A stretch of 38,726 bases of DNA, from the NCBI GenBank assembly GCA_030694905.1, contig JAUYTY010000152.1, positions 1 to 38,726 on the forward strand, given 5' to 3'. Below the pieces are notes generated by a model. The model did no database searches and was not told the DNA's origin. It was given only the letters and a program-made list of their open reading frames with translations. This DNA comes from Eubacteriales bacterium (GTDB taxonomy: Bacteria; Bacillota; Clostridia; Tissierellales; Dethiosulfatibacteraceae). The position numbers and the translations under genes were made by a program. Positions 9,710 through 37,181 of this stretch are shown here, in pieces; position 1 is the first letter of the stretch; the number at the start of each line of letters is the position of its first letter.

Positions 9710-11128
9710 CTATTTTTTAGTGAATAAGTCACCTATAGTGAAATTGTCGTCTCCAAGGGTGTAGCTGCTCAAATTCTCGACTTTGTTGTCTTTTTTATCT
9801 TCGGTTTCATTTTCTATAATCATTGTAAGCTTTATGGTTTTTGATTTTCTGTTGATGTCAGTAATCTTGCATTCCACTTCCTGATCTTTTTCAAGAATCT
9901 GAGCCGGTGTTCTCAGCTTGTCCTTTGATACCAGCTTTGTAGGCACAAATCCTTCGATTTCTTCAGCCAACTCCACCACGACGCCTTCAGTTGTCATACT
10001 GGTCACTTTGCCTTTGACAACATCAAATCTTTTCAGATTTTTAGTGTATTTGACGAAAGGATCTTCAGATAGCTGCTTGGCTCCCAATGACAGTCTTTCT
10101 TTTTTACTGTCTATTGCCAGTATTTTCACTTCAACCTCTTGTCCCACTTTCAATACATCCTGTGGATGCTTTACCATGTCCCATGAGATGTCAGATACGT
10201 GCAAGAGTCCTTGAACATTGTCTATCTCAACGAATGCGCCGAAATCAGTCAAGGATACTACTTTTCCTGTAACGATATCACCTGCATTGTAGTTCTCTGT
10301 GAACAGCTCGAATGGTCTTTTAAGTGTGGCTTTATGGCTTAAAGACATTCTTTTTCTTTCAAGGTCCTTCTTCAAAATCTTGACACTGATCACATCTCCC
10401 TCTTTCAACACATCAGAAGGGTGCTTGATTCTATTCCATGATATTTCATTGATGTGAAGAAGTCCTTCAATGCCATTGACTTCGACAAATGCGCCAAAAT
10501 CAACTACACGATTTACTTTTCCTTCATAAATCTCTTTGGTGTCTATGGTCTCCCATGCTTGCTGTTCTTTTGCCTTTGCTTCTTCAATTTCCAACACTTT
10601 TCTAGAAAAAATCAACTTGTTCTTGTTGTTTTTCATTTTGGCTTCGATGATTCTCACTTCAAGGTTCTTCCCTACAAAATCAGCCGGAACAGCATTTCTG
10701 TCTTTGGACAGATGAGAGCCCGGTATGAACCCGCTGAATCCTTTGAACTCTGCTATAACGCCACTGTCGTTAGAATTGGTTGTTTTGACGGTCACGGTTT
10801 CACCGGTTTTCATCAGTTCGACAATAGCATCCCATTTGTGTTGTTCCTCAAAATCTTTTCTTGACAGGACAATGTTGCCATCATCGTTGCTGTTACTGGC
10901 CACTACAGCTTCAATCTCATCACCGACATTGAGGATATCACGCAAATCCTCCACATCATCCATTGTGTAATCATCCTTTGTAATGATTCCGTCAGACTTG
11001 TAACCGAAGTTAACCAAAGCCTTATCCCTTTCAACAAGGATTACAGTCCCTTTTATTTGTCTTCCTGGAAAAATTTTAATGAATTCGAAATTTTCTAGCA
11101 GTTCATGCATTTCATTTTGTTCTGACAT
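9710..11128 (-). CDS. rpsA: Ribosomal protein S1 homologue with five S1 repeats
   Basis: S1-type proteins bind single-stranded RNA through OB-fold S1 repeats. The 472-residue product shows five repeats, at about residues 20-90, 106-176, 196-266, 281-350 and 366-436. Repeats three and four are the most canonical (VDFGAFVEVNGIEGLLHINE and DFGAFVEIDNVQGLLHVSDI). Repeats one, two and five are more diverged. ATG 11128 is chosen because AGGAGGTT lies seven bases upstream; the in-frame TTG at 11134 would be one base away. It overlaps ispH by 17 bases. In many Clostridia the two are fused; here they are separate frames. Confidence 0.93.
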   Translation of the reverse strand: MSEQNEMHELLENFEFIKIFPGRQIKGTVILVERDKALVNFGYKSDGIITKDDYTMDDVEDLRDILNVGDEIEAVVASNSNDDGNIVLSRKDFEEQHKWDAIVELMKTGETVTVKTTNSNDSGVIAEFKGFSGFIPGSHLSKDRNAVPADFVGKNLEVRIIEAKMKNNKNKLIFSRKVLEIEEAKAKEQQAWETIDTKEIYEGKVNRVVDFGAFVEVNGIEGLLHINEISWNRIKHPSDVLKEGDVISVKILKKDLERKRMSLSHKATLKRPFELFTENYNAGDIVTGKVVSLTDFGAFVEIDNVQGLLHVSDISWDMVKHPQDVLKVGQEVEVKILAIDSKKERLSLGAKQLSEDPFVKYTKNLKRFDVVKGKVTSMTTEGVVVELAEEIEGFVPTKLVSKDKLRTPAQILEKDQEVECKITDINRKSKTIKLTMIIENETEDKKDNKVENLSSYTLGDDNFTIGDLFTKK

Positions 11129-11951
11129 TAACAATAACCTCCTCGACTATTCCCAGCGGAGTCGATGCTCCAGCTGTAATACCGATCTTCTTAGAATTTT
11201 TTATCAAATCATAAGGAATCCCGTCGGCGTTTTCAATCCAGTAGGTATTGTCACAGAGTTCCTTACAAATTTCATACAGTTTTTTTGTGTTTGAGCTTTG
11301 TTTGCCACCGATTACCAAGACAGAGTCGCATTCCACAGCCAATCGCTTGGCCGCTTCCTGTCTTAGCTCCGTAGCCCTGCAGACGGTGTCCTTTACTATA
11401 ATAGCATTATTATTTAAAGAATAAAAGTATTCTTTTATATCATTATGTTTATTTATATTGTAGGTGGTCTGAAAAACGATACAAGTCTTGTTTTCAGAAT
11501 AATTATGATTGTTTTTATAGTCATTTAGGTCGGAATAGATGTAGACTCCCTTTTCACACCAGCCCTTGATTCCCTGAACTTCTGGATGGTCTCTGTTTCC
11601 GAAAATGATAATATCGTAACCGTCGTCACAGTGTTGGCGGACTATGCTGTGTATACGCCTAACCTTTGGACAGGTCGCATCTATGATGCGGACGTTGTTT
11701 TTCACGCAATAATCGTAAACGGACTGTCCAACGCCATGGGACCGAATCACCAGGCTCGAGTCCTTCAGATCCTGCAAATCTTCTATTATATGTAAACCCT
11801 TGCGCTCGAGACTCTCCAAAACGTCATTGTTATGGATCAGCTCTCCATAGCAGTATAGCTCGGTTTCCGATTCCAATGCGTCGTTTGTTATCTCCAACGC
11901 CCTGTCAACGCCAAAACAGGTGGCATAGTGGTCGGCTCTAATTATTTCCAT
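11112..11951 (-). CDS. ispH: IspH, 4-hydroxy-3-methylbut-2-enyl diphosphate reductase
   Basis: IspH makes IPP and DMAPP in the last step of the MEP isoprenoid pathway using a [4Fe-4S] cluster. The three cluster cysteines are Cys12 (TCFGV), Cys94 (DATCPKV) and Cys191 (DTVCRAT). Family motifs IRSHGVG, GNRDHPEV, GKQSSNT and the ending GITAGASTPLGIVEEV are present. ATG 11951 puts the N-terminus where IspH usually starts and has a weak GGATGG five bases upstream. In-frame ATGs at 11960 and 11972 are alternatives. The gene overlaps the plsC end. DMAPP from this pathway also feeds MiaA. Confidence 0.95.
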   Translation of the reverse strand: MEIIRADHYATCFGVDRALEITNDALESETELYCYGELIHNNDVLESLERKGLHIIEDLQDLKDSSLVIRSHGVGQSVYDYCVKNNVRIIDATCPKVRRIHSIVRQHCDDGYDIIIFGNRDHPEVQGIKGWCEKGVYIYSDLNDYKNNHNYSENKTCIVFQTTYNINKHNDIKEYFYSLNNNAIIVKDTVCRATELRQEAAKRLAVECDSVLVIGGKQSSNTKKLYEICKELCDNTYWIENADGIPYDLIKNSKKIGITAGASTPLGIVEEVIVNVRTK

Positions 11952-12552
11952 TTTTGCCATCCATAAAAACATTTTTCAGGTTGTAGATCCTTTTCATGAT
12001 GTCAATGCTTATATCGGTATACTGCTTCGAATCAAGCGTGGTTTTATCCATATGATTGTAATCATATTTATCACCGTAATAGATGTCAACCCTGCCGAAC
12101 AATTTGTATTTGGAGTCGATATAGACGGGAAGCACAGTCGCTTTGGACCGGACAACCAACATGCCGATGCCGCCTTTGACAGCGCTTTCATTAAATCCCT
12201 TGACTCTTGTTCCTTCAGGGAAAATACCCAATGTGTTGTTGTTCTTCAATATCTTAAGGGAGTTCTTAAGGGCAGTCAAGGAGTTGCCTTCTCTATCCAC
12301 AGGGAAAACCTTAATTCTTGTCAGAAGAAATCTGAGAATACTGTTCTCAAACAATTCTTTTTTAGCCATATAGCTGATCTCGTCTTTGAAAGTGATCGCA
12401 ACGACAAAAGGATCGAACCAGGAAGAATGATTGGCACATAATACCAAAGGCTCTTCTTCGTTGATCAGTGAATTTTCCTTATAATGAACTTTTATTCTGA
12501 ACAGAATCTTTAAAATGATAATTGCTATTACCCTGATAAACTTATAAAACAT
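11938..12552 (-). CDS. plsC: PlsC, 1-acyl-sn-glycerol-3-phosphate acyltransferase
   Basis: This enzyme acylates lysophosphatidate to phosphatidate at the membrane. The acyltransferase HX4D motif is NHSSWFD (His42, Asp47). The glycerol-phosphate binding motif FPEGTR is at residues 111-116. An N-terminal hydrophobic stretch (about 5-20) would anchor it. The 204-residue length is typical. It abuts cmk and overlaps ispH; the order cmk-plsC-ispH-rpsA is common in Clostridia. Confidence 0.94.
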   Translation of the reverse strand: MFYKFIRVIAIIILKILFRIKVHYKENSLINEEEPLVLCANHSSWFDPFVVAITFKDEISYMAKKELFENSILRFLLTRIKVFPVDREGNSLTALKNSLKILKNNNTLGIFPEGTRVKGFNESAVKGGIGMLVVRSKATVLPVYIDSKYKLFGRVDIYYGDKYDYNHMDKTTLDSKQYTDISIDIMKRIYNLKNVFMDGKNGNN

Positions 12553-23475: not shown

Positions 23476-24012
23476 GGCGCAATACATTTTATAGTACAAA
23501 AGACCGATGATTGTTTTAGAGTCCACAATCTCTCCGGAGACGATTTTTTCCAATGCCTCATCCAGATCCAGTGTGATCAGGTCGATGAATTCATCCTCGT
23601 CATTCTCCAGATAATCCGCAGCCAGACTTTTGGCGACAAACAAATGGATTTTCTCGGTGCAAAATCCCGGTGAGGTGATGATTTCCATAACCTCATGGAG
23701 CTGATGTGCACGAAAACCGGTCTCCTCGATTAGCTCTCGATAGGCACAGTCGAAGGGGGTCTCCCCCTTTTCCAGCTTTCCGGCGGGTATTTCTGTCAGA
23801 ACCTTCTCCACTGCCTTTCGGTATTGCCTCACCATCAGAATCTTGTTCTCATCAGTTACCGCAACGATGGCCACAGCCCCGTTATGCTCAACAATCTCTC
23901 TCAGTGAGGTTTTGTCATTTGGAAGAAGCACCTCGTCCACCCGGAGATTCAGGATCTTGCCTTCGTGTATCCGCCTGCTGCTTATTGTTTTTTCTATCAT
24001 ATCATTTCTCAT
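23467..24012 (-). CDS. NUDIX hydrolase, ADP-ribose pyrophosphatase type
   Basis: The 181-residue protein has a complete NUDIX box GX5EX7REUXEEXGU at residues 78-100 (GKLEKGE...RELIEETGF). The preceding VRQYR and TEIPAGKLEKGE segments and the SPGFCTEKIHLF downstream are characteristic of ADP-ribose pyrophosphatases (NudF type). It would convert ADP-ribose to AMP and ribose-5-phosphate. It overlaps recN by 11 bases if started at 24012; an alternative ATG at 24000 would avoid overlap. Confidence 0.9.
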   Translation of the reverse strand: MRNDMIEKTISSRRIHEGKILNLRVDEVLLPNDKTSLREIVEHNGAVAIVAVTDENKILMVRQYRKAVEKVLTEIPAGKLEKGETPFDCAYRELIEETGFRAHQLHEVMEIITSPGFCTEKIHLFVAKSLAADYLENDEDEFIDLITLDLDEALEKIVSGEIVDSKTIIGLLYYKMYCATS

Positions 24013-25675
24013 TTGCTCTGACCATTTCCTCTGCGTTTTTCATCGATATCTCAGTGATGTCCAGACTGCTCAGCAGCCTTGCAACTTCCCTGATCCTGTC
24101 CTCATAGCCAAGCCTTGTGACTGAAGAATATGTCTTTTGGCCGTCAGTCAGCTTCTCTATGACAAAATGGGTATGGGCCGCGGATGCGATTTGTGGCGAG
24201 TGGGTCACACAGATCACCTGATGGGTAGCTGAAATCTTCTTGATCTTCTCGCCTACCATGTGGGCGGTTTTCCCGCTGATGCCAGTGTCTATCTCATCAA
24301 ATATCATTGTCGGTATATCATCTATTTCATTTATGATGGACTTGATGGCCAGCATGATTCTGGACACCTCTCCACCGGATAATATCTTGTCTAGGGGCAT
24401 GAGATCCATACCCGGGTTGGTGCTGATCATGAACAATATGCTGTCCCTGCCCAACTCATTGAAGGAAGGCGTATCCGTGGTGCTGATGCTAAACCGGGCC
24501 TCTTTCATATTTAAAGAGTGAAGCTGTTTTTCAATTTCCTTTTCAATTATGGCTGCCTTATTATTTCTGATGCCATGCAGATCCTTTGCAAGTGACGCCA
24601 AATCGGTCTCAACTGATTTCAGTCTGGTTTTTAGGCTGCTGATTCTCGACTCGATATTTTTCAGAAGCTCCAGTTCACTGACGGCATTGTCCCTGTGATG
24701 CAACAGATCTGCAATTTCCATGTTGTATTTTCTTTTGATATGATTGATGGCTTCCAGCCGCTGCTCCAAGAACAAGAGCCTTTCATCGTCCAGCTCCTTT
24801 TCATTGGCGTAGTCTATCAGATCAAACGACAGCTCCTGGGTGGAATCTATAATAAGCTCCATGGCTGATTCAAAGCCTTTGATGGCCTCGTCATAATGGG
24901 ATACCTTCTTGATAGCCTTGAGGGCCTCTGAAAGCATGTCCGTTATTGAGCGGTTCTCATTGGTGAAATAGCCCGCCGCCTGAAAGACATTCATTTTGAT
25001 GTCGTTCAGATTGGACAGAATATTGTACTCGCCAAAAAGAGACTCCTCTTCTCCCGGTTTCAGTTTTGCACTATTGATCTCATTGATCTGAAACGCAAGA
25101 AAATCCATCCTGGCATTCTTGTCCCGATTGCTTTTCTCGAGGGATGAAATCTCATTTTTCAAACCAAGATAGTCCTTGTAAAGAGATTGATAGCTTTCTA
25201 GAATACCTTTAAGCTCCGAGCCGCACATCTTATCCAAAATAAGGATATGCTCGCCGCTATCCAGAATGGACTGCTGCTCATATTGACCGTGAATATCCAG
25301 CAGGTATCTTGCGATGACCTTGAGAAAGGAGATGTTGATAAGCACGTCGTTTACTCTGGCTGTTGACCTGCCATTGTCCATCACATCTCTGGTTATGATG
25401 ATCGTGCCATCCTCCGTCCCGATGCCCTGCTCAGCCAAAATAGGCAGCAAGGGGGAATTTTCCTCAATATAAAAACTACCTTGAACAGTAGCCTTGTCAC
25501 AATCTTTTCTTACAAAACCTTTGTTGGATTTTCCACCAAGTAGCAAATTCAAAGAGTCTATAATCATGGACTTTCCAGCACCGGTCTCTCCCGTAAAAAC
25601 ATTGAAGCCGTCTGTAAAGTCCAGAAATATTTTTTCAAAGATGATAAAGTTCAAGATGCTTAGATTAAGCAGCAT
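24002..25675 (-). CDS. recN: RecN, DNA double-strand break repair ATPase
   Basis: RecN is an SMC-like protein acting early in double-strand break repair. The Walker A motif GETGAGKS is at residues 29-36. A central coiled-coil region spans about 150-370. The ABC signature LSGGEVSRIMLAIK and Walker B with FDEIDTGISG are near the C-terminus. The 557-residue length is normal. CGGAGGTTTT precedes the ATG. No LexA box lies in the 11-bp gap to argR, so any SOS control would act elsewhere. The argR-recN order is conserved in Firmicutes. Confidence 0.96.
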   Translation of the reverse strand: MLLNLSILNFIIFEKIFLDFTDGFNVFTGETGAGKSMIIDSLNLLLGGKSNKGFVRKDCDKATVQGSFYIEENSPLLPILAEQGIGTEDGTIIITRDVMDNGRSTARVNDVLINISFLKVIARYLLDIHGQYEQQSILDSGEHILILDKMCGSELKGILESYQSLYKDYLGLKNEISSLEKSNRDKNARMDFLAFQINEINSAKLKPGEEESLFGEYNILSNLNDIKMNVFQAAGYFTNENRSITDMLSEALKAIKKVSHYDEAIKGFESAMELIIDSTQELSFDLIDYANEKELDDERLLFLEQRLEAINHIKRKYNMEIADLLHHRDNAVSELELLKNIESRISSLKTRLKSVETDLASLAKDLHGIRNNKAAIIEKEIEKQLHSLNMKEARFSISTTDTPSFNELGRDSILFMISTNPGMDLMPLDKILSGGEVSRIMLAIKSIINEIDDIPTMIFDEIDTGISGKTAHMVGEKIKKISATHQVICVTHSPQIASAAHTHFVIEKLTDGQKTYSSVTRLGYEDRIREVARLLSSLDITEISMKNAEEMVRANEK

Positions 25676-25686
25676 AAAACCTCCGT

Positions 25687-26139
25687 TTAGTTAATCAGGG
25701 CATACAGGTTGTTGATGATCTCATCCACTGATTCAAGCTTTCTCACAGCGACAAAAACGGTGTCATCTCCGGCTATGGTTCCGCCGACATCAGTCATCTG
25801 AAGCGAGTCTATGGCAGAGCCGCAGATCTGCGCCGCACCGGGTATTGTTCTGATAACCACAATATTCAGTGCTGCATCAATGGATATGATGGAGTTTTTG
25901 AATATTCTGACAAGCCTGTCAGAAATGGAGTTCTGGCTCTCTTCAATGGTGCCGTATTTATACTTGCCTGTGTTTGAGGTGACCTTGATCAGCCTCAGCT
26001 CCTTGATGTCCCTGGAGATGGTTGCCTGCGTCACGTCGATTCCCATACCCTTAAGCGTTACTGCCAGGTCTTCCTGTGTTTCAATTTCCCTTTCGTTGAT
26101 CAATTCAAGAATCTTTGATTGTCTTGCGTATTTTTTCAT
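25687..26139 (-). CDS. argR: ArgR, arginine repressor
   Basis: ArgR is a hexameric, arginine-dependent regulator of arginine synthesis and catabolism. The N-terminal winged helix includes ETQEDLAVTLKGMGIDVTQATISRDIKEL. The C-terminal oligomerisation and arginine-binding domain includes PGAAQICGSAIDSL and the GTIAGDDTVFVA motif. The 150-residue length is standard. An ARG-box-like sequence lies in its promoter at 26174-26187. It is followed closely by recN. Confidence 0.95.
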   Translation of the reverse strand: MKKYARQSKILELINEREIETQEDLAVTLKGMGIDVTQATISRDIKELRLIKVTSNTGKYKYGTIEESQNSISDRLVRIFKNSIISIDAALNIVVIRTIPGAAQICGSAIDSLQMTDVGGTIAGDDTVFVAVRKLESVDEIINNLYALIN

Positions 26140-26168: not shown

Positions 26169-26197
26169 ATTATTGCATATTTATACACTGTTTTCAA
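26169..26197 (-). promoter_or_regulatory. argR promoter with candidate ARG box
   Basis: On the minus strand -35 TTGAAA (26197-26192) and -10 AATAAT (26174-26169) are 17 bp apart. The spacer contains TGTATAAATATGCA (26187-26174), matching 11 of 14 positions of the Firmicute ARG-box core TGAATAAAAATTCA. Autorepression by ArgR is inferred. The -35 overlaps the tlyA stop codon. Confidence 0.5.
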
Positions 26198-27003
26198 TTG
26201 TTTAATTCGGTATTTGCTAAATTTACTACTTTATTGATTTTATCCTCGCAATCGAAGGCGCTTTTAATCCCTATATAATGGAAAAAAGCCAGATACTCTA
26301 TATTGCCCTTTGCCCCCTTTATTGGTGAAAAGCTAAGGTCAACCAATTCAAATCCATTGTCAGCGCCATAAGCGATAGCGTTTCTGATGACCTCAATATG
26401 GGTATTCCTATCCTTGACCACGCCATGTTTTCCCACCTTTTCCCGACCTGCCTCGAACTGTGGTTTGATTAGCGTCACAGCCTCGGCATTATCGGCGGCC
26501 AATTCGGCCATATTCGGGAACATCAGCTTCAAAGATATAAAAGACACATCCACGCTGTAGAAATCTATCCTGTCCTCTATCAGAGATTGGTCCATATACC
26601 TGAAATTGGTCCTTTCCAGCACCTTGACCCGCGGATCGTTTCTTAGCTTCCATTCCAGCTGTCCATATCCCACATCCACGGCATAGACCTTTCGGGCACC
26701 GTTTTGCAGCATACAGTCTGTGAAGCCGCCTGTGGATGATCCTATGTCCATGCAGACCTTATCCCTCAAATCCAGAGAGAATGCCTCTTGCGCCTTTTCT
26801 AGCTTGTACCCGCCTCTGCTGACATAGCGCTCCTTTTGCTTGACCTCTATGCTGGACAGCACATCTATCTTTGTGCCTGCCTTGTCGACAATGTTGCCAT
26901 CAACCAGGACATCTCCTGCCATTATAGCCCTTCGCGCCTTTTCCCTGCTGTCAAAATAATTGTTCTCATGCAAGAATGTATCGATCCGTTGCTTATCAGA
27001 CAT
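26194..27003 (-). CDS. tlyA: TlyA-family RNA 2'-O-methyltransferase
   Basis: TlyA proteins methylate ribose 2'-OH in rRNA (in mycobacteria, 16S C1409 and 23S C1920). This one has an N-terminal S4 domain (RIDTFLHENNYFDSREKARRAIMAG) and a FtsJ/RrmJ-like domain with MDIGSSTGGFTDCMLQNGAR and FYSVDVSFISLKLMFP. ATG 27003 with AGGTG four bases upstream gives 269 residues; an extension to 27042 runs into oapA. It follows oapA by seven bases. tlyA-argR-recN is a conserved order, and tlyA is a usual neighbour of OLE loci. Confidence 0.93.
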   Translation of the reverse strand: MSDKQRIDTFLHENNYFDSREKARRAIMAGDVLVDGNIVDKAGTKIDVLSSIEVKQKERYVSRGGYKLEKAQEAFSLDLRDKVCMDIGSSTGGFTDCMLQNGARKVYAVDVGYGQLEWKLRNDPRVKVLERTNFRYMDQSLIEDRIDFYSVDVSFISLKLMFPNMAELAADNAEAVTLIKPQFEAGREKVGKHGVVKDRNTHIEVIRNAIAYGADNGFELVDLSFSPIKGAKGNIEYLAFFHYIGIKSAFDCEDKINKVVNLANTELNN

Positions 27004-27010
27004 AATACAC

Positions 27011-27568
27011 CTAAACCTTAAACTTGAAGAACCGATGGACAAACTTCAGAAACTTAGCGGCATAAAGGACAATCCTGTTAGCCTTGTTGATGGCCACATC
27101 CTTGCCGATGGCCTTTCCGCCAACTGTCAGGCCTGCGATCATGCTACTCATTAAAACGGTCAGATAAAAACCTTGTCTGAAGCCGTAATCCCTTATGAGA
27201 TTGATTACAATGATCGTGCCTGCGCCTCCGCTGATGATACCTGAAATATCCCCGATAACATCGCTGCAGAAGCTGGAGACCTTTGCGGCGTTCTTTGTGA
27301 TAAACAGGCAGTAATAAGCGATTTCAATCTTTTTTGATGCCATGGCATGAAAATGCCTCTCATCGGCAACAGCAGCCGCAACACCGATAATATCCGTCAG
27401 CACGCCGATCATGATGATAACGATCAGCGTTAAAAAGGCAAAATAGATATTAAGGTTTTGCAGGATCGAATCTGAGATGAAACTAAAAAAAGCGGCCAAT
27501 ATAACTGTAGAGACCGTTATAATAATGACCCAGCGATTATTGAATTTACTTATTTTATTTTTTTCCAT
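27011..27568 (-). CDS. oapA: OapA, OLE RNA-associated membrane protein (CorB/DUF21-like)
   Basis: The 185-residue protein has predicted membrane segments at about 12-34, 41-66, 107-125 and 134-150. Between them is a conserved-looking loop containing AVADERHFHAMASKKIE and KNAAKVSSFCSDVIGDISG. It ends in a basic tail rich in Lys, Arg and Phe. Size, topology and partial resemblance to the DUF21 membrane domain of CorB/CNNM magnesium transporters match OapA, which binds OLE RNA at the membrane. Its place directly after the OLE RNA and before tlyA is the known context. A GGAG site nine bases upstream sets the ATG at 27568. The main alternative label is a generic CorB-like membrane protein. Confidence 0.82.
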   Translation of the reverse strand: MEKNKISKFNNRWVIIITVSTVILAAFFSFISDSILQNLNIYFAFLTLIVIIMIGVLTDIIGVAAAVADERHFHAMASKKIEIAYYCLFITKNAAKVSSFCSDVIGDISGIISGGAGTIIVINLIRDYGFRQGFYLTVLMSSMIAGLTVGGKAIGKDVAINKANRIVLYAAKFLKFVHRFFKFKV

Positions 27569-27587
27569 AATATCTCCAAATGATTAA

Positions 27588-28132
27588 ATGGCAGTACAAC
27601 AAGTAAAATTTGCGGCATAGGTTCAGTTGGATTTCCCATAGGCCAACTGGTTGTCGCCAACCAGCGGTTTCCCTTGAATAACCTCTCTGCATAGTCGCCT
27701 GACACAGTACTGAATTACCACTCAGTCCGCACTGCAATCCTTGCCATACCTCCCGTAAAGGATCAGTCTAGGAGTTTTCCTCAACAGCTTTTCTAATCTC
27801 TAGCCTCTTTTGCAGTAAAAATTTCAGCAGCATGGTCCAGCAGAACATGAGCTCCTGTTCCGCCCTACTTTAATCTGAATCCCATTTTACCACTCAAGGC
27901 AGGCTACGCTGATGTCAGGTTCACTGCACATCAGGTTTTCCTAATACTAGGTCTCCACGATAGGGGGGTCTACGCCCACATGCCATTGTGGATCGCCCCA
28001 ACTACCTTACTTCCAGAAAAGACCCTCGACTGGGCGTCGAAAGCCCCAACCAGAAACTTCATCGATTTGCCCTTCGACGGATTTTTAGGCCCGCCTTCAA
28101 GAATAGATAGACTGACTAGAATACTGAGCCAT
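27588..28132 (-). ncRNA. ole: OLE RNA (ornate, large, extremophilic RNA)
   Basis: This gene-free stretch of about 545 nt lies between xseB and oapA and its minus strand is highly structured. A terminal helix pairs 28132-28129 plus 28126-28122 with 27588-27596 (a two-base bulge). Internal helices include 28079-28071 with 28043-28035; 27934-27928 with 27915-27909; a GGUUG-GCGA-CAACC hairpin with a GNRA loop (27662-27649); and 27648-27643 with 27630-27625. OLE RNAs are found in anaerobic and extremophile Firmicutes between xseAB/ispA and oapA/dxs/tlyA, bind OapA at the membrane, and have been linked to Mg2+ and stress responses. The context fits except that ispA and dxs are missing. End points are set by the closing helix and are approximate. 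Confidence 0.85.
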
Positions 28133-28164
28133 CTTATCAAACAAATTATAGCATAACAATTGAT

Positions 28165-28356
28165 TTATTTCAAATTCTCGTTTATCTCTTGAAATTTATT
28201 GGACGCTTCGGCCAACAATCCTTCGCAATATTGGTGAAGCTTGACACCCTCTTCGTAATTGGCGATGGCCTCGTCCAATGTCAGATCGTTCTTGTTGAAG
28301 GACTGGATCAGCAGTTCCAGTTTTTTGGCTGCCTCTTCAAAGGTTAGATTTTTCAT
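28165..28356 (-). CDS. xseB: Exodeoxyribonuclease VII small subunit
   Basis: The 63-residue protein starts MKNLTFEEAAKKLELLIQSF and contains LTLDEAIANYEEGVKLHQYC, the conserved helical core of XseB. Several copies bind each XseA to form exonuclease VII, which degrades single-stranded DNA from both ends. It overlaps xseA by four bases and is the last protein gene before the OLE RNA. Confidence 0.96.
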   Translation of the reverse strand: MKNLTFEEAAKKLELLIQSFNKNDLTLDEAIANYEEGVKLHQYCEGLLAEASNKFQEINENLK

Positions 28357-29546
28357 ATCTTATCTCCTACATCGGTTATAGTAGCTTTTGCAATACGCTG
28401 CAGATTTTCAAGACTTACCTTGTCATCCGGCTTCAGAGCATTGAGAGTCTTCAATAGTTTACCCTCAGAGTCTTTGATGAATACAAAGCCCTTCTCGCAT
28501 ATCTTCTGATAATCATTTTGATTCAAGTCCAGATGAAGCCGGTTCAGTGCATCCTTTCTATTGTTGATATACTTAATATAATGGCTTGATATATTAGCTG
28601 TTTTAGCCATTATCTGATCATGTCTCCGTTCAATAAAATGTGATGTATTGAGGAATTTAAGCCTCTCTTTTTGTAGGTTCACATAATATATTTTACGTGA
28701 ACTAAACTCCGTAAATCTGTCGTTTAGCTGTTCCCTATAAGCCGGAAGTGCGTTGATAACCGTCTTATAGCCCCTGATGGTCAGCTCGGCCGCAGCTGTG
28801 GGAGTCTGCACCTCCCTGTCAGCGGTCATATCCGCTATGGAAAGGTCCGTTCCATGGCCTATGCCTGTCAGTACGGGAACCTTGGATTTGAATATGGTGT
28901 CAGCCAATATCTCATCGTTGAAGGTTTCAAGATCAACCTTGGATCCCCCGCCTCTGGCCAGGATGATGATGTCGCAGCGGTTGACCTCATTGAAGTGCTT
29001 TAGACCTGATATGATGTTGAAGACGGCTGTTCTGCCCTGCACAAAGGCATTGTAGAACAGTATGTCCAGACCAACGTTGCACTCGCTGTAAACCCGCTTG
29101 ATATCCTCTATCACCGCTCCCTCTATGGAGGTTATAATACCGATTCTTTTAGGGAAAACAGGCAAGGGTTTTTTTCTCTCCGGATCAAAATATCCCTTCT
29201 TTTCCAGCTTAAGCTTCAGCTCTTTGAGATACTTGCTCTCTACGCCCTCTGATATCTCAGACACCTCATGAACGATGAGCTGGTAGACGCTACGCTTGTC
29301 GTAGGTTTCCACCTTTCCTTTTACGATGGTGATCTTATCCTCAGGGATCTCCACATCAGGATCAAAACAGACGCAGTGGATGATGCTGTTCTCGTCCGAT
29401 AGAGAAAAGTATTTATAGCCAAGCTTAGATCTTCTAAGGTCTCTGACCTCGCCCATGACGGTCACATTGTTCAGAATCGGATTGCTGTAAAGAATCTTTC
29501 TTATGTAATTGTTCAGTTCACTGACTTTTAGAGGTTTTATTATCAT
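28353..29546 (-). CDS. xseA: Exodeoxyribonuclease VII large subunit
   Basis: XseA is the catalytic subunit of exonuclease VII. The N-terminal OB-fold spans about residues 20-100 (VMGEVRDLRRSKLGYKYFSL). The catalytic domain includes PKRIGIITSIEGAVIEDI, IILARGGGSKVDLETFNDE and PVLTGIGHGTDLSIADMTAD, all conserved. ATG 29546 is preferred because AGGG is 10 bases upstream; ATG 29555 would be one base away. Length is then 397. It follows nusB by 62 bases. Confidence 0.95.
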   Translation of the reverse strand: MIIKPLKVSELNNYIRKILYSNPILNNVTVMGEVRDLRRSKLGYKYFSLSDENSIIHCVCFDPDVEIPEDKITIVKGKVETYDKRSVYQLIVHEVSEISEGVESKYLKELKLKLEKKGYFDPERKKPLPVFPKRIGIITSIEGAVIEDIKRVYSECNVGLDILFYNAFVQGRTAVFNIISGLKHFNEVNRCDIIILARGGGSKVDLETFNDEILADTIFKSKVPVLTGIGHGTDLSIADMTADREVQTPTAAAELTIRGYKTVINALPAYREQLNDRFTEFSSRKIYYVNLQKERLKFLNTSHFIERRHDQIMAKTANISSHYIKYINNRKDALNRLHLDLNQNDYQKICEKGFVFIKDSEGKLLKTLNALKPDDKVSLENLQRIAKATITDVGDKI

Positions 29547-29608
29547 ATTCACCATTCCCTAAAACAAACATAGACAGCCATAGCTGCCTATTTTGTTCAC
29601 TTAAAAAT

Positions 29609-30010
29609 CTATACCTCGGATCTTCGGCTGATGTTGCCCAATATGCCGTTAATGAACTTATGCGCATCCGAGCTTGAGTACTTTTTGCTGATTTCAACAG
29701 CCTCGTTGATAGATACACTGACAGGTATGGAGTCATCAAACTCCATTTCACACACCGCTAGCCTGAGGATGGCAAAATCTATCCTTGCTATCCTGTTCAG
29801 CTTCCAGTCATTGGAATAGATATCAATAAGCCTGTCAATCTCCAGAACGTGCTGGCGAAAGTTTTCCGCTGTTCTTCTGAAGTAATCCACATCAACCATT
29901 ATTTCCAGATACTCCAGATATTTCTCCAAATCAAAATCACCGATGGTATCATTGATGTCTACCATGTAAAACAGCTTCATCAACTCTTCTCTGGTATCTT
30001 TTCTGCTCAT
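29609..30010 (-). CDS. nusB: NusB, transcription antitermination factor
   Basis: NusB, with NusE (S10), binds boxA RNA to promote rRNA operon antitermination. The 133-residue all-helical protein has an N-terminal REELMKLFYMVDIN and the C-terminal signature RIARIDFAILRLAVCEMEF...PVSVSINEAVEISKKYSSSD with FINGILGNI. It overlaps the asp23 stop by four bases. asp23-nusB-xseA-xseB is the common Firmicute order. Confidence 0.95.
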   Translation of the reverse strand: MSRKDTREELMKLFYMVDINDTIGDFDLEKYLEYLEIMVDVDYFRRTAENFRQHVLEIDRLIDIYSNDWKLNRIARIDFAILRLAVCEMEFDDSIPVSVSINEAVEISKKYSSSDAHKFINGILGNISRRSEV

Positions 30011-31365: not shown

Positions 31366-31794
31366 TCATTCATAAAGTAGAATCCTTCCGGTGTTGACAT
31401 TGATTGTGATTTCCCTGTATCTACCGGTTTTGTTGTTGATAATCCTTATTGTCTGGGCACGTCTGGGTGTGCCGTTTGCATTGAACCAGACCGAGTTTTC
31501 ATAGAAGCTGATCGAGTATTGATCCCTCAAATCCACCACTTTGTGAAAGGCAGGCATGGGATTGGCGTATCTCACCTGATAGCCATCCTCCAGCAACACC
31601 ATATTAAATGACTTCATCGGTTCCGTCATGTTCATGTTTTTGACAAAACGGATGTCATACAGCAGCTGTCTGGCAAAATTATTCAAATAAGCGTCATTTG
31701 CGTTGGATATTGTCGGCATTGAAATGAGTAAAATAATACCTAATATAGCCAAAACCAAAATCAGCTCTACTAAAGTATACCCTTTTTTATTCAA
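31366..31794 (-). CDS. Type IV pilin-like protein (minor pilin or pseudopilin), TTG start
   Basis: The protein has a class III signal: short basic leader NKKG, then YTLVELILVLAILGIILLIS with Glu at +5. A soluble domain of about 110 residues follows. Cleavage after Gly5 by the PilD of this cluster is expected. TTG 31794 is chosen because a GGTGA ribosome site is four bases upstream and the leader is then five residues; the in-frame ATG at 31863 would give an unusual 28-residue leader. Tyr instead of Phe follows the processing site. It is the fourth pilin-like gene; order suggests a minor or core subunit. Confidence 0.8.
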   Translation of the reverse strand: MNKKGYTLVELILVLAILGIILLISMPTISNANDAYLNNFARQLLYDIRFVKNMNMTEPMKSFNMVLLEDGYQVRYANPMPAFHKVVDLRDQYSISFYENSVWFNANGTPRRAQTIRIINNKTGRYREITINVNTGRILLYE

Positions 31795-31863
31795 TTTGTC
31801 ACCATACTTTATCTTCCAAAATGCATTACAATTATATAATATAGATTTATTAAAAGCAACCAT

Positions 31864-32322
31864 TTAATTTTGTATATTCCGCATAAAAACAGTGTTTTCA
31901 ATCAGATAGGTTTCGTTGCCTTTGCCGAACAGCAGTGAATAATGGACGGAATTGCTGATTTCATCCCTCTCGAAATGCATATCATCGATATAATTGGCCA
32001 TTTCGTTGTAGTTTTCAATCAGATCTCCATTGGGCTTCAGTTTGATATCATATCTGTCGTACCGGTAGGTGCTTTGATTGTAGGTCAATAAAACCACCAT
32101 CTTGTTGCTTTCATCAAAACCGAAATAGTCGCATTGGGATATCCGTCTGTTCAGATGGTTGTTGACAATCTGAGCCTGGTAATGCAATTCGTTAAGATTG
32201 TTTATTTTTGTGTTCTGTCTCACCTGATAGATGAAAAACGAAAATACCATTGCTGTCACGATTCCAAGGATAGACAGTGACACTAGAAGCTCTATCAGTG
32301 TCAGACCTCGCCTATTGCCCAT
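31864..32322 (-). CDS. Type IV prepilin-like protein (PilW/ComGF-like minor pilin)
   Basis: The 152-residue protein starts MGNRRGLTLIELLVSLSILG, a class III leader with Gly6 before the processing site and Glu at +5. A single N-terminal hydrophobic helix is followed by a domain of about 110 residues with no recognised fold. GGAGGGT precedes ATG 32322; an upstream in-frame extension to 32394 lies inside the preceding gene and is rejected. It overlaps the PilX-like gene by 11 bases. Confidence 0.85.
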   Translation of the reverse strand: MGNRRGLTLIELLVSLSILGIVTAMVFSFFIYQVRQNTKINNLNELHYQAQIVNNHLNRRISQCDYFGFDESNKMVVLLTYNQSTYRYDRYDIKLKPNGDLIENYNEMANYIDDMHFERDEISNSVHYSLLFGKGNETYLIENTVFMRNIQN

Positions 32323-32980
32323 ATAAGACCCTCCAGTTGCTTCTGGATACTGACACGTCCTGATGAACAATATCGAACATATACCCGTCACCAAGAGAGA
32401 TTTGAGGATAAGCGATTATCAGATCCACGCCATTCTTTCTTGTGATGCCCTTTGCTTTATAGGTGGATTCAATGCTGTATGCACTCTTCCCCGTTGTGCT
32501 GGAGATTCTCGTTATTCTGACTTTGATGTCCGCATCTATCCTGGAATCAAAGTCATTGATCATTCCTGCGTAACAATCGCGAAATGTCTGATTGAAGTGA
32601 CTTTGAAACTCTATTTTGATTTCATCAGGAAGCAGCGTCAGGTCCAATGGATGTATATACTCCCGGTAGGGACTCAGCACATAACTTTTTTCACCATTGT
32701 TTATTCTATCGATGCTGTGGATTGTCCCTTCGATGATCTCTGTGATGTGCTCTATAGTCTCAGAAGCTGCCTGCTCGTAGGACAGGATTGCCAAGGCATT
32801 GGCCTCATCCAGACCTGCGTCGCTCAAATAGGCATTGGAGACATAGGTAACGTTGCTTAGCCTCATCTTATAGCTCATGACAGTAGTTGCCATAACCGTG
32901 GTGCCTAGAAGCAAAACAATGGCTATCACATATACAAGCAATATCAGAATACCGCCATTATCTCTCTTTAACGATTCCAT
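32312..32980 (-). CDS. PilX-like pilus assembly protein
   Basis: The 222-residue protein has a short N-terminal charged segment (MESLKRDNGG) and a single hydrophobic helix (about 11-35). It lacks the Gly-Phe-x-x-x-Glu processing motif, as in PilX-N/GspK-type subunits. The rest is a soluble domain with no recognised motif. ATG 32980 with GAGAGGT upstream is preferred over ATG 32995, which would overlap the previous stop by four bases. Its place second among the four pilin-like genes matches the PilU/PilK region of C. difficile clusters; the exact counterpart is uncertain. Confidence 0.7.
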   Translation of the reverse strand: MESLKRDNGGILILLVYVIAIVLLLGTTVMATTVMSYKMRLSNVTYVSNAYLSDAGLDEANALAILSYEQAASETIEHITEIIEGTIHSIDRINNGEKSYVLSPYREYIHPLDLTLLPDEIKIEFQSHFNQTFRDCYAGMINDFDSRIDADIKVRITRISSTTGKSAYSIESTYKAKGITRKNGVDLIIAYPQISLGDGYMFDIVHQDVSVSRSNWRVLYGQ

Positions 32981-32991
32981 ACTTACCTCTC

Positions 32992-33363
32992 TCATTCCAC
33001 TATTGTGGTACCTCTCATCTCCAGAAGAATCTCATCATCAATAACCTTTGACAGTCGGATCTGATATAGTATGCTCCGGTGGTCCACATCATAAAAAGAG
33101 ACAGGCTCAATAGCATATCTGATGCTACTGTCTGTCGGAAGAAGGTGCTCATTCCCGTCCTTATGCAACCCAAGCAAGTCTTCACAGCCCTTGATGCCCT
33201 CCATGACCCTCTGAAGGTCTATAGATGCATCCAGTGCCGCCTGAGCGGCAAGGTTAGCCGTTGCTGAAAAATACAGCATGTTAAGGGCTGGTACAATGAT
33301 AATCAACAAGATGGCTATTGTTATGATCAGTTCCATTAATGAAAAGCCTTGAAAATTTCTCAT
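32992..33363 (-). CDS. Type IV prepilin-like protein (PilV-like)
   Basis: The 123-residue protein starts MRNFQGFSLMELIITIAILL, with Gly6-Phe7 at the processing site and Glu at +5. The upstream frame to 33459 reads through noncoding sequence and is rejected. ATG 33363 has no ribosome site; instead a minus-strand TATACT box ends seven bases upstream, raising the possibility of a leaderless mRNA. It is the first of four pilin-like genes. In C. difficile the gene after pilO is pilV, which this resembles in size and position. Confidence 0.82.
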   Translation of the reverse strand: MRNFQGFSLMELIITIAILLIIIVPALNMLYFSATANLAAQAALDASIDLQRVMEGIKGCEDLLGLHKDGNEHLLPTDSSIRYAIEPVSFYDVDHRSILYQIRLSKVIDDEILLEMRGTTIVE

Positions 33364-33369
33364 AAACAT

Positions 33370-33378
33370 AGTATAGCA
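33370..33378 (-). promoter_or_regulatory. Promoter candidate of the pilin sub-operon, extended -10
   Basis: On the minus strand TGCTATACT (33378-33370) is an extended -10 element. The -35 region 17 bp upstream is poor. The predicted start of transcription falls on or near the ATG at 33363. Confidence 0.45.
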
Positions 33379-33409
33379 TAAAATGAACCTGGATTGAAGG
33401 AATACATAT

Positions 33410-33445
33410 AAAAAGATTCCCCTTTTTACAGAGAAATCTCTTTTT
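33410..33445 (-). terminator. Intrinsic terminator candidate after pilO
   Basis: On the minus strand AAAAAGAGATTTC (33445-33433) can pair with GGGGAATCTTTTT (33422-33410), with a two-base bulge and one G-U pair. The 3' arm ends in five T residues. It would separate pilD-pilMN-pilO from the pilin genes. Confidence 0.55.
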
Positions 33446-33475
33446 ATTATAATGACCACTTATTTAATTTACTGG

Positions 33476-34654
33476 TTAGTTCATCTGTACGACGACATTT
33501 TCAGTGGTTTCCAGATTCAATCTTGGTCTTACCGGATCATCACCGAAAACATTGATATAGAACAGTAAATCTGTTTCGTTGATTATTGTCAGATTGACGC
33601 CTGATTGATCATCAGCGGATTCTCTTACCATTGACCTGACTTCCATGCTTAAAAAGTCGTTGGCTGGCTTGAATTCCACCCAGTTCTGGTAGTTTGCGGG
33701 ATAAGTCCCCAAAGGCGTATTGTACTTATAGGCGTATATGCCATTCTCAAGCTTGATGGAAATCTCAACAGTTTCCCGAATATTGCTGTCCGCATAGACA
33801 TAGCTCTGATAAGTGTCATCTCTGAATTTACCGAGGTTGACTGTCGGTATGTCCTGCGACATAGGTCCTAGAACCATGGTCAGGTCATACTTGGTTGTGA
33901 AGTATGGATCAAGCACCACATCATCCAGCAAGAACGGATTCGATCGCCCATATTCTATGACGTCCGACCATATCCAATCCATATACTCATGCTCATGAAG
34001 CTTAGGGATGGAGAAAATCGATACTGCTGTGTTTCCGGTAACAATAGAGTCCTCAAGGCTTGAGGCCATTGAAAGGTTCGACATGACAAACTCGACCTTA
34101 TTCTGTTGCATGAAATCAATAAAATCCAACAGGTCATAATAGTCAGCCTCAAAACCAAATGACACTGTCATGCTCTCAGCAGAGGCAGTTACAGGCTCTT
34201 GAGCTTCCGCTGGCGGTGGGGTGATGATGCCCAAATATTGATCTCTCAGGTCACGCAATGGATATTGTGGCAATCCGGTGGCTGAAGGATTTGGATTGTA
34301 GACAACGCTCATCAATCCAACTTCCGAAAAGCTAATATTGCTGACATCCAAGCCATACTCATCGAAATATCGGTTAAAGAACATAATGGCATTCTCTTGG
34401 TCGATTCTCTCTAAATAGCTCTCTGTCATATTTGAGACCTCAAAATTCAAAGACTGTATCTCAAATAACAACTCTTTTTCAAGTTTTAAGGCATTCAATA
34501 TTCTTTCGGCTTCCTGTTTCTTTTGCTCGATGACAGTTTCCTTTTCCGCGATAGTCTCGAGATTTCTCAGATAAACAAAGTTGTAGAACAAATATGAACC
34601 GATGACTAATATTAGAATCAACAATAATATTCTTTCTCGCTTTTGTATTCTCAT
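33476..34654 (-). CDS. pilO: PilO-like pilus alignment protein
   Basis: The 392-residue protein has a cytoplasmic basic start (MRIQKRER), one membrane helix (about 8-30), a coiled coil (about 33-70) and an extracellular domain. This is PilO topology and it follows PilMN directly, starting one base after the pilMN stop. It is longer than the usual 200-residue PilO, with an extra domain of about 190 residues. PilO links PilN to the rest of the pilus machine. AAAGGATGTG lies upstream within pilMN. No homology beyond topology and context was confirmed. Confidence 0.75.
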   Translation of the reverse strand: MRIQKRERILLLILILVIGSYLFYNFVYLRNLETIAEKETVIEQKKQEAERILNALKLEKELLFEIQSLNFEVSNMTESYLERIDQENAIMFFNRYFDEYGLDVSNISFSEVGLMSVVYNPNPSATGLPQYPLRDLRDQYLGIITPPPAEAQEPVTASAESMTVSFGFEADYYDLLDFIDFMQQNKVEFVMSNLSMASSLEDSIVTGNTAVSIFSIPKLHEHEYMDWIWSDVIEYGRSNPFLLDDVVLDPYFTTKYDLTMVLGPMSQDIPTVNLGKFRDDTYQSYVYADSNIRETVEISIKLENGIYAYKYNTPLGTYPANYQNWVEFKPANDFLSMEVRSMVRESADDQSGVNLTIINETDLLFYINVFGDDPVRPRLNLETTENVVVQMN

Positions 34655-34655
34655 A

Positions 34656-36308
34656 TTAATTCACATCCTTTGTTGTGATATTGACTGTGAAAGTATATGC
34701 ATTCAGAGCCCCTGCCACTGCTTCTGTCTCTATTTCCAAGGCATCTTCCTGGCGAGAGATACTTGGGACATGAACCCTGTCAGTGAAGTCCAGATCTTTA
34801 AGATTCTTAGCAAACTGAGCGATGGATTCTCTGACCAGTGATGTGCCCTGTATAGCTATATTGGGACCGCTTATGTTCATGGAACTGATATTGGTGTCTA
34901 CCGGCACGGTTGAAGACAATGCAATCAGCAGATCTGTCTGAATCACATCAGCCCTTCCCAGCTGACTGTTGAGCGCTCCCATGATATTCTTGTAATCTCT
35001 CAATACGTTAATTTTAGCCTCAAGCTCCTGTACTTCCTTATATTTTGTCTGATATGTGGGATTGTTGATGATGCTGTCATAGTAATCAATATCATTGTTT
35101 AAGGAATATATTTTAAGGGAATAATCCAGAAAATAGAACAGTAATCCAAGCGCTATCAGCCCAAGCACCAAGGTACTTGAAGCAACGGTTCTTAATCTGG
35201 CTTGTTTAGATTTGAGAATGTCGGAGAGAAGATTCATGTCAGTCTTTGTTTTCAGCAAACCAGATACGGCATTTAGATAGTCGACCAGGGACAGATCTTT
35301 CTCATTTCGGCTCTTTAACTCAAGGGTAAAACCACCGATTTTATCAATTACCTCGGTTTTGACATTCAGATTGTCCTGGAAAAACTTCTCAATATTTCTT
35401 ATCTTTGCAGACCCACCGTACAATAATAATCTGTCGGCTTCGATCTCCTTGTTTCGGGAGTTAAAATACTGGACAACTCTCCTGACCTCATTGATCCACT
35501 CATCCACTGTTGAATTGATTATGTTGTTGACAGAGGTATCCTCAGGAGTCTCCAACTGGTAAAGCTCAAGACTGGATACCTTGTGTTTCAGCTTGGTTGC
35601 ATTCTCCGGATTGGTGTCGAAAAGGTTTCCTATGCTGATATCTATATCCGAACCGCCAAGATTGATGATTCTAGTGAACAGGTTCTTGTCATTGTACATC
35701 ACATTAAAGATCAGTGATTTGTGTCCCATTTCCAGAACATAATATGCTTTGTCTTTCAGTATTTTTTGATCATTGACGGTTCTTCCCACACTGAACACCT
35801 TTTCAAGGGAATTGAAGGACAGGTCCATAGAAATCAATCTCAACCCTATGGTCTCAGCTAGATGCCTATAGTCATTGATCAGTTTGGTTGGTACCGCATA
35901 GATCAGGTAGCTGCCTTTTTTTATGCCATCCTCAGTATAGGTCTTGACGATTCTAAAAACAATCTTGTACTCATCCAAAACAACAGGCAAAAACTGCTCA
36001 AGTTCAAACCTGATCATCTGAATAGTCTCGTCATGCTTTTTCAATATAGGCAACTCAACTGTTCTGGTGATTAGAGAAGTGGTATTGATGTTGAATACCG
36101 CGTTTTTTGATCGAATACCATTGGATGTCAGTGTCTGCTTCAATACATTGCGGACACTTTCAAAATCCTTGATATAGCCTTCCTGAATTGAGTCAATCGG
36201 GGTGCTGATCGTTACTGCCTTTTTGACAGTCAGATTTTTCTTATCCGAAACCCCCTCAACTATTTTGATGCTCTTGCTACCAATATCGATAGAAACAAGT
36301 TTTGCCAT
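34656..36308 (-). CDS. pilMN: PilM-PilN fusion, type IV pilus inner-membrane assembly protein
   Basis: Residues 1 to about 355 form a PilM actin-like ATPase, with MAKLVSIDIGSKSIKIVEG at the start, INLGGSDIDISI and LLLYGGSAKI. The remainder is PilN-like: MNLLSDILKSKQAR near residue 358, the characteristic PilN start, then a membrane helix (about 375-395), coiled coil and a periplasm-type domain. In most Gram-negatives these are separate genes; C. difficile also has a PilMN fusion. ATG 36308 with AAGGGG upstream is chosen over the extension to 36365, which runs into pilD. It is followed by pilO. Confidence 0.88.
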   Translation of the reverse strand: MAKLVSIDIGSKSIKIVEGVSDKKNLTVKKAVTISTPIDSIQEGYIKDFESVRNVLKQTLTSNGIRSKNAVFNINTTSLITRTVELPILKKHDETIQMIRFELEQFLPVVLDEYKIVFRIVKTYTEDGIKKGSYLIYAVPTKLINDYRHLAETIGLRLISMDLSFNSLEKVFSVGRTVNDQKILKDKAYYVLEMGHKSLIFNVMYNDKNLFTRIINLGGSDIDISIGNLFDTNPENATKLKHKVSSLELYQLETPEDTSVNNIINSTVDEWINEVRRVVQYFNSRNKEIEADRLLLYGGSAKIRNIEKFFQDNLNVKTEVIDKIGGFTLELKSRNEKDLSLVDYLNAVSGLLKTKTDMNLLSDILKSKQARLRTVASSTLVLGLIALGLLFYFLDYSLKIYSLNNDIDYYDSIINNPTYQTKYKEVQELEAKINVLRDYKNIMGALNSQLGRADVIQTDLLIALSSTVPVDTNISSMNISGPNIAIQGTSLVRESIAQFAKNLKDLDFTDRVHVPSISRQEDALEIETEAVAGALNAYTFTVNITTKDVN

Positions 36309-36321
36309 ATTACCCCTTCTT

Positions 36322-37062
36322 TCATAAGAAAATATTAAAATATATAGATAAAAGCTCATTGCCATAAAGCATATACGTCAATGCTGCAATGGCTATGAAA
36401 GGACCGAAAGGTATATAATCCTTTCTTGTAGCCTTTTTAGTGGCAATCAGCATGATTGAAATGATTGCGCCATAGATGAAACTCATCATAGTGACAAAAA
36501 CGATACCCGTCAAACCGAACAGCAATCCTAATACCCCCATGAGTTTGATGTCCCCCCCACCCATGGCATTGGTTATCATCGCTATCACCAGAAATAAAAG
36601 AAAACCGAATAAAAATCCAAATAAGTGCGTTAAATAGTTTCCTCTAAAAAGATATATACCCAAAATCACAGTAATTATAACACCAAAAATGTTCAAACCA
36701 TCAGGAATTGTCTGAGTTTTTAAATCAATCATGCTGATAACAATCAGCAAGCTGCTGATGATCCCATAGAGCACCGTAAGTAATGAAAAACCATATCTGT
36801 AAAAGAGCAGCGCATAAATCACTCCGTTCAACAATTCAATCATAGGATATTGAATCGAGTAACTTGCCTTGCAATACCTGCATTTGCCTCTGAAAATAAA
36901 ATAGCCAACAAATGGTATCATATCGATAAAATTGAGCCTGTGATCGCAACTCCCGCAGCTGGACGGTGGAAAAACAATTGATTTGCCCACAGGAATTCGA
37001 TAGATGCATACATTCAGAAACGATCCTATGAATAATCCTAAAATAAAAACTAATAATATCAT
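36322..37062 (-). CDS. pilD: PilD, prepilin leader peptidase / N-methyltransferase
   Basis: PilD removes the short leader of type IV prepilins and N-methylates the new first residue. The 246-residue polytopic protein starts with FIGSFLNVCIYRIP and has two CxxC pairs (CGSCDHRL and CRYCKASY) in the cytoplasmic loop. The aspartic protease residues are in the segment DLKTQTIPD and in GGGDIKLMG. The substrates are the three or four prepilins encoded downstream. AAGGA precedes ATG 37062. No PilB, PilC or PilT is seen in the window. Confidence 0.95.
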   Translation of the reverse strand: MILLVFILGLFIGSFLNVCIYRIPVGKSIVFPPSSCGSCDHRLNFIDMIPFVGYFIFRGKCRYCKASYSIQYPMIELLNGVIYALLFYRYGFSLLTVLYGIISSLLIVISMIDLKTQTIPDGLNIFGVIITVILGIYLFRGNYLTHLFGFLFGFLLFLVIAMITNAMGGGDIKLMGVLGLLFGLTGIVFVTMMSFIYGAIISIMLIATKKATRKDYIPFGPFIAIAALTYMLYGNELLSIYFNIFL

Positions 37063-37098
37063 CTTTTGTCCTTGTTTAATGTCATTGTATTTGTATTC

Positions 37099-37107
37099 AT
37101 TATAGCA
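37099..37107 (-). promoter_or_regulatory. pilD-pilMN-pilO promoter, extended -10
   Basis: On the minus strand TGCTATAAT (37107-37099) is a perfect extended -10. The -35 region 16-17 bp upstream (around TTTAAC) is weak. Confidence 0.6.
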
Positions 37108-37140
37108 TATAAAAGCACTTGTTAAATAGTTATTTAAGAA

Positions 37141-37167: not shown

Positions 37168-37181
37168 GAGTTAGAATCTAA

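Follow-up and report, generated by a model that had tools for sequence, protein, structure and literature searches.

The ole locus and its RNA

The window, i.e., the whole stretch of 38,726 nucleotides that was analyzed, encodes on its minus strand an intact, full-length OLE RNA of the known class next to the gene oapA (Table 1). The gene order nusB-xseA-xseB-OLE-oapA-tlyA, proposed by an earlier sequence-only reading, was confirmed: NusB, XseA, XseB, and TlyA exceed curated Pfam or NCBIfam cut-offs, while OapA is identified by its location directly after OLE, the occurrence of relatives at 145 of 146 OLE loci, at most 900 nt downstream of the RNA, and its predicted fold. The tlyA-like gene, whose ATG start was picked by reading, lies immediately 3' of oapA; neither ispA nor dxs was found between xseB and tlyA. 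According to the ORF list of the window, 596 bases separate the end of xseB (28165) from the start of oapA (27568). The statement that this gap has no supportable frame holds, as a single minus-strand ORF of at least 60 aa extends into the gap, namely one of 60 aa with a TTG start (27555-27737) that overlaps the 3' part of OLE. The closing CCAT ends at 27588, the lower boundary given earlier for the structured region.

Table 1. Features of the ole locus and of its surroundings in the window
Feature	Position	Strand	Basis or remark
OLE RNA gene (ole)	27572..28148	-	Rfam RF01071, 474.4 bits, E 2.5e-136, model 1-616; short P7
OLE closing helix	about 28132-27588	-	
Promoter-like site TTGAAA-17-TATAAT, extended -10 TG	28145..28173	-	11/12 consensus matches
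GAGCUC, self-complementary P9-arm loop, predicted dimer kissing loop	27849..27854	-	
oapA, OLE-associated membrane protein A, 185 aa	27011..27568	-	ORF, position after OLE, AlphaFold model
tlyA-like rRNA methyltransferase	26194..27003	-	TIGR00478, 275 bits (cut-off 186)
xseB, exodeoxyribonuclease VII small subunit	28165..28356	-	PF02609, 52 bits; TIGR01280, 58 bits; both above cut-off
xseA, exodeoxyribonuclease VII large subunit	28353..29555	-	TIGR00237, 336.5 bits (cut-off 180)
nusB	29609..30010	-	TIGR01951, 117.5 bits (cut-off 88)
argR, common downstream neighbor of OLE loci	25687..26139	-	NF001680, 197.8 bits (cut-off 184)
recN-like, common downstream neighbor	24002..25675	-	Named by reading; tblastn finds relatives at this position in many order OLE loci
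ispH (lytB), ~15.6 kb from OLE	11112..11972	-	TIGR00216, 263 bits (cut-off 188)

Elsewhere in the window, the minus strand of 31366-38705 contains prepilin-like, pilM-like, and prepilin peptidase-like ORFs, which by reading resemble the components of a type IV pilus or of type II secretion; beyond them lies, also by reading, a surface protein whose domains are repeated and whose C-terminal tail resembles an anchor.

In an Rfam scan of the whole window, the sole match above the gathering score was OLE (RF01071; 28148-27572, minus strand), with 474.4 bits (gathering score 50), an E-value of 2.5e-136, and coverage of model positions 1-616 of 616. The proposed identity thus withstood the covariance-model check, and the probability that the region is another structured RNA or a coding sequence is vanishingly small, since OLE alone reaches the gathering score in the window and there is no long ORF. 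Plain folding of the OLE region yields -189.9 kcal/mol (z -2.63, one of 100 shuffles being equally good), a weaker and moderately unusual signal; the covariance model is decisive. The structured minus strand with a GNRA loop, also described earlier, is borne out: in the Rfam alignment, GCGA (GNRA) loops cap two hairpins of the 3' domain.

The Rfam structure places 145 pairs on the window sequence, 130 of which are standard. Helix names (P7, P8, P12.2, and P13) were assigned to the window OLE by order. From the 71 order genomes with OLE, 66 were aligned after exclusion of the fragments in G195, G197, G209, G210, and G230. Standard pairs fill 85.8% of the cells at the 145 model pairs, compared with 41.9-48.4% in four versions with the 3' partners slid by one or two positions, a comparison that favors the unslid version because the structure is that of Rfam, fitted by Rfam to the window; 100 shuffles gave a mean of 75.3% and a maximum of 75.8%. 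Changes on both sides occur at 94 of the 145 pairs in these 66 OLEs (shuffles: mean 73.8, maximum 81).

The sequence-only reading had further regarded the gap as shorter than expected, perhaps marking a compact variant. This did not hold up: the length of 577 nt falls within the 552-610 nt of the rest of the order and equals that of the Clostridium acetobutylicum OLE solved by cryo-EM (PMC12286853), and 205 of the 207 near-invariant columns (at least 97% in the 65 other order OLEs) are kept. The two departures are located at 27617 and 27576, the latter within the single-stranded tail, and the single clear reduction concerns P7 (2 nt, compared with 34 model positions). A compact or decaying OLE that lost parts along with its isoprenoid neighbors is therefore very unlikely. 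The short P7 agrees with such decay, as do the median lengths of 615 nt in the class outside the order (80 of 108 genomes with OLE analyzed), 589 nt in the order without f1 (the family of the source genome, G000), and 575 nt in f1. However, besides the preserved columns, P9 is long with a self-complementary loop, and both GCGA loops of the 3' domain are present, where OapB has been reported to bind (P12.2 and P13; PMC9723947). Moreover, 25 of 146 OLEs have at most 577 nt, all six of f1 among them.

The P9 loop has been described as a symmetric kissing contact between two OLE copies, with reported core switches among GGCC, GAUC, and AGCU (PMC12286853). Across the seven OLE-bearing genomes of f1 and its sister lineage f14 (represented by G161, its one genome with OLE seen), the loop reads GAGCTC in five, GGGCTC in one, and GGGCCC in one, and is self-complementary in all seven when G-U pairs are allowed. 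Among the other 59 order genomes, 44 have GGGCCC and one has AGGCCT, while the remaining 14 are non-palindromic in this alignment register or carry a gap or deletion there. A loop that is altered yet still self-complementary is as expected if the dimer is kept. A separate case is the 552-nt OLE of G011 (L100/L028), which scores 498 bits despite the absence of the distal P9 arm and the dimer kissing loop; from its sequence, it appears to be a natural OLE lacking the kissing contact.

Gene order around OLE in related genomes

Gene order was compared by tblastn with one G000 protein per gene, a search that may miss divergent copies: at the 59 order loci with adequate flanks (short flanks removed 7 of 66), ispA is located upstream of OLE at 51, dxs downstream at 20, and neither is present at eight, while the corresponding numbers for the 72 class loci outside the order (8 of 80 removed) are 44, 56, and 12. 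Both genes are thus missing at 20 of 131 OLE loci, and dxs at 39 of the 59 order loci. The set of xseA, ispA, oapA, dxs, and tlyA is complete around OLE at 37 of the 72 loci from the class outside the order and at 20 of the 59 from the order.

A direct xseB-OLE junction with neither isoprenoid gene is present in all six OLE-bearing f1 genomes as well as in G161, the Tissierellales isolate SM3-B4.1; two of the former, G004 and G007, have short flanks and stand outside the 59 loci. Family f1 includes G003, the cultured type strain Dethiosulfatibacter aminovorans DSM 17477. The direct junction is a particular trait of f1 and its sister, while the loss of both isoprenoid genes is not unique to them. 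An assembly error as the cause of the missing ispA is extremely improbable. Although the source assembly consists of 221 contigs (listed as 99% complete and 2.3% contaminated) and the OLE loci of some relatives do break in assembly, the junction recurs in six f1 genomes and G161, the type-strain contig included, and ispA resides on a separate contig with different neighbors.

The earlier claim that the isoprenoid genes are gone applies to the cluster, from which they are absent, and not to the genome. A full-length dxs is encoded at G000:C151:1278-3104 (767.6 bits, cut-off 466), ispA is found at G000:C128 among other neighbors (farnesyl diphosphate synthase model, 353 bits, cut-off 275), and ispH lies in the window itself. 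The genes therefore left the cluster, not the organism. That the organism instead gave up ispA or the MEP (isoprenoid precursor) pathway, whereupon the genes left the OLE cluster, would suit a cluster without both ispA and dxs; this is hardly conceivable, being refuted by the three genes unless the contigs carrying them are contaminants.

In a 48-row tree of four neighboring proteins, built without families f6, f11, and f36, the seven f1 and f14 genomes group as a single clade with support 100, nested in the order with support 97. A 113-row FastTree recovers the same clade (1.0), but its placement inside the order is unsupported (0.54), and f6 and f11 fall outside. The simplest and likeliest account is one old eviction of ispA in an ancestor shared by f1 and f14. 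The present ispA may be either the moved gene or a foreign replacement: in a quick IspA tree, f1 IspA groups with genomes outside the order (support 90-91), but a single ispA clade was not rejected (p-AU 0.33; f6, f11, and f36 excluded, one row per other family). In the dxs tree, f1 is a separate branch, and the deeper nodes are weakly supported.

Two apparent exceptions were considered and set aside. The same-genus genomes G001 and G002 gave no OLE match, but this is not interpretable as OLE loss within the genus: G001 also lacks oapA, tlyA, and xseA, i.e., the block is either missing from the assembly or deleted, and the G002 contig ends inside oapA. A split, two-piece OLE in G210 is an assembly artefact, as the pieces overlap and each abuts an N stretch; in its relative G209, OLE stops at a contig end in the same place as the G210 break. 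Assemblies broken inside or beside OLE comprise G209, G210, G002, G195, and G197; when a draft genome seems to lack OLE or to have it split, the contig ends need to be checked.

Transcription and the 3' side of OLE

The scanned region contains four promoter-like sites, compared with 2.9 expected, the best being TTGAAA-17-TATAAT at 28173-28145, whose -35 hexamer overlaps the end of xseB. At this position, matches of at least 10/12 are found in four of the six f1 genomes, in 54 of the 60 order genomes outside f1, and in 34 of the 79 class genomes with enough upstream sequence (of 80 loci), against a background of 17 in 1200 windows from the order's own flanks. In G006 and G007 (f1, genus g4), the site scores only 8 and 9 of 12, and the xseB stop lies 5-7 nt from OLE.

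In 56 of the 60 order genomes that do not belong to f1, OLE is directly followed by a hairpin with a near-fixed stem, GCTGATAG...CTATCAGC, and a T-rich stretch. By the same sequence-pattern search, which scored G222 as missing despite a near-match, the hairpin occurs in none of the six f1 genomes, not in G161, and in six of 80 class genomes outside the order. In G161, OLE is followed by a different hairpin with a poor T-run. No second copy of the conserved hairpin was found on the OLE strand within the 691,018 bases of the 60 order loci, and no description of it was found in the available text of PMC12054373, PMC10898510, and PMC9723947, although figures or other papers may describe it. The hairpin (GCTGRTAG...CTATCAGC; e.g., L136, L139, and L153 from G211, G215, and G236) sits at or past the end of the Rfam model, and its stem is more conserved than a terminator should need. 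In the f13 genomes (L116, L117, L118, and L162), a partial second copy of the first arm is visible by eye further downstream, so that both copies are potential pairing partners for the terminator arm.

In the window, no terminator-like site was found on the minus strand between 26900 and 28400. A separate terminator scan overlooked some hairpins visible by eye, and the hairpin counts given above are those of the sequence pattern. The start of oapA is located 19 nt after the closing helix of OLE, and a Shine-Dalgarno-like GGAG occurs 10 nt past that helix. The missing terminator-like hairpin and the short spacing suggest that OLE and oapA are probably co-transcribed, with OLE released by processing, and the arrangement points to joint transcription of ole, oapA, and tlyA, with the 3' end of OLE generated by cutting. 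The spacing is 19-51 nt in f1 (median 24), compared with a median of 71.5 nt in the rest of the order; at 31 of 80 class loci outside the order, oapA likewise follows OLE within 40 nt, so the close spacing is a local change and not a new design. The idea that terminator loss is a unique trait of f1 was weakened by the same loci, among which only six have the conserved hairpin.

The f1 OLE could additionally act in cis as the 5' leader for oapA, whereby OapA would tune its own synthesis through binding of this RNA. Such a role, consistent with the absent hairpin, the position of GGAG, and the reduced distance between the closing helix and oapA, is nonetheless improbable: spacing of at most 40 nt is common enough outside the order that no special function is needed, and the OLE of Halalkalibacterium halodurans has been described as lying in an operon, with its own promoter, and as presumably processed (PMC9723947).

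A broader rearrangement is possible but doubtful. A terminated stand-alone gene in an isoprenoid cluster might have been rewired, in the Dethiosulfatibacter-like lineage, into the leader of an ole-oapA-tlyA transcript, with mature OLE obtained only by cutting of the mRNA; the isoprenoid genes would have been evicted, the 3' hairpin lost, and the promoter match weakened in genus g4. If true, this would couple the dosage of the RNA and OapA, and the linkage of OLE to isoprenoid genes would be dispensable while that to OapA would not. The conserved order hairpin and its absence in f1 lead to predictions on how the 3' end of OLE is made.

The preferred reading, held at a probability of roughly 90%, is that of an intact OLE with its partner oapA in a Dethiosulfatibacter-like Tissierellia bacterium, including the proposed function, the ispA loss, and the processing. 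By analogy, this OLE would work like other OLEs, as a dimer of the RNA to which OapA binds at the membrane and which helps the cell through stress, a role known for OLE from H. halodurans. The ancestor of f1 and its sister may have lost ispA from between xseB and OLE, with dxs also departing from the cluster, as in many relatives. OLE would be transcribed from its own promoter, perhaps also from upstream, on into oapA and tlyA, and would be cut out of the longer RNA.

Protein partners and relation to known systems

OapA had no match to Pfam or NCBIfam models at an E-value of 0.001. Its AlphaFold model (mean pLDDT 82) best matches the membrane domains of CNNM/CorB proteins (Z 13.5, 2.7 Å over 132 residues), although, according to the tool's own warning, Z up to about 13 can arise by chance for helical bundles. 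CNNM entries occupy structural ranks 1-4 (Z 11.9-13.5), the next row having Z 8.4; superposition gave Z 13.5 with MtCorB (7m1t) and Z 12.0 with CorC (7cfg). Foldseek alone returned nothing at an E-value of 0.001, its best match (0.097) also being a CNNM protein. The model thus presents OapA as a multi-helix membrane protein with a predicted CNNM-like fold, next to OLE, in agreement with the published similarity between OapA and MpfA (PMC11332333).

At the oapA position of two other genomes (G211:C3:307535-307930 and G210:C1:317581-317976), the CNNM Pfam model scores 25.2 and 22.4 bits, below its cut-off of 28.4; such matches would support the kinship of OapA and CNNM proteins. The source genome also encodes a CNNM-family transporter (G000:C109, L209, ORF 4182-5477 on the minus strand; 430 aa, PF01595 with 173 bits), which coexists with OLE. 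An anticorrelation with OLE has been reported for MpfA, itself a CNNM protein; the G000 transporter may be an MpfA orthologue, though it reached no NCBIfam cut-off. PF01595 matches above the cut-off were also found in G003, G004 (partial), G006, G007, and G161.

The search of the remaining genome for oapB, oapC, ispA, and dxs, suggested by the sequence-only reading, retrieved the two intact isoprenoid genes and candidates for both proteins. The OapB candidate, encoded between map and infA (names by reading), matches OLE-associated protein B (PDB ID: 7k9b; E 2.5e-12) but is absent from the KOW (PF00467) matches. The OapC candidate, encoded between rpoC and rpsL (also by reading), matches YbxF structures (4lck and 3v7e; E 1.1e-11). 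Neither reaches a curated NCBIfam cut-off, and OapB and OapC also occur in species without OLE according to PMC11332333, a study reporting 2,822 OLE hits in Bacillota; both are regarded here as candidates.

The gene neighbors of OLE (dxs and isoprenoid genes) have been used as clues to its biochemical task (PMC10898510 and PMC12265935). Family f1 constitutes a natural test of the isoprenoid clue, with OLE and oapA intact and both isoprenoid genes moved away: OLE need not cluster with isoprenoid genes, while the adjacency of oapA is kept at nearly all loci. The OLE RNA itself is ordinary, and its neighborhood is an inherited variation of f1. In the open-licence literature, no paper was found that treats OLE RNA together with ispA or links the ornate large extremophilic RNA with Dethiosulfatibacter.

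Among known systems, the membrane domain of the CNNM/CorC/MpfA Mg2+ transporters (PF01595) has its fold in common with the OapA model; OapA, however, shows only 11-15% identity, contains no CBS domains, totals 185 aa, and has no Pfam match. Compared with the xseB-ispA-ole-oapA-dxs-tlyA cluster, the window locus has the same nusB, xseA, xseB, oapA, tlyA, argR, and recN flanks but is devoid of ispA and dxs, which are both located elsewhere in G000. OLE variant 2 is characterized by the absence of P7 and P8, whereas the window OLE has a P8 hairpin. With variant 1 (shorter P7, P8, and P9; OapB site P13 often missing), it has the short P7 in common but retains P8, a long P9, the GCGA loops of the 3' domain, and OapB/OapC candidates; it is thus placed outside both variants. 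Together with the reference OLEs of RF01071 (C. acetobutylicum and H. halodurans), it covers the whole model and has the near-invariant columns, a self-complementary P9 loop, oapA directly downstream, and its own promoter-like site, and it differs from them in the short P7 and in the P9 loop GAGCUC. The latter stands in place of GGGCCC, the loop of 44 of the 59 other order members, and is of the AGCU type already described (PMC12286853).
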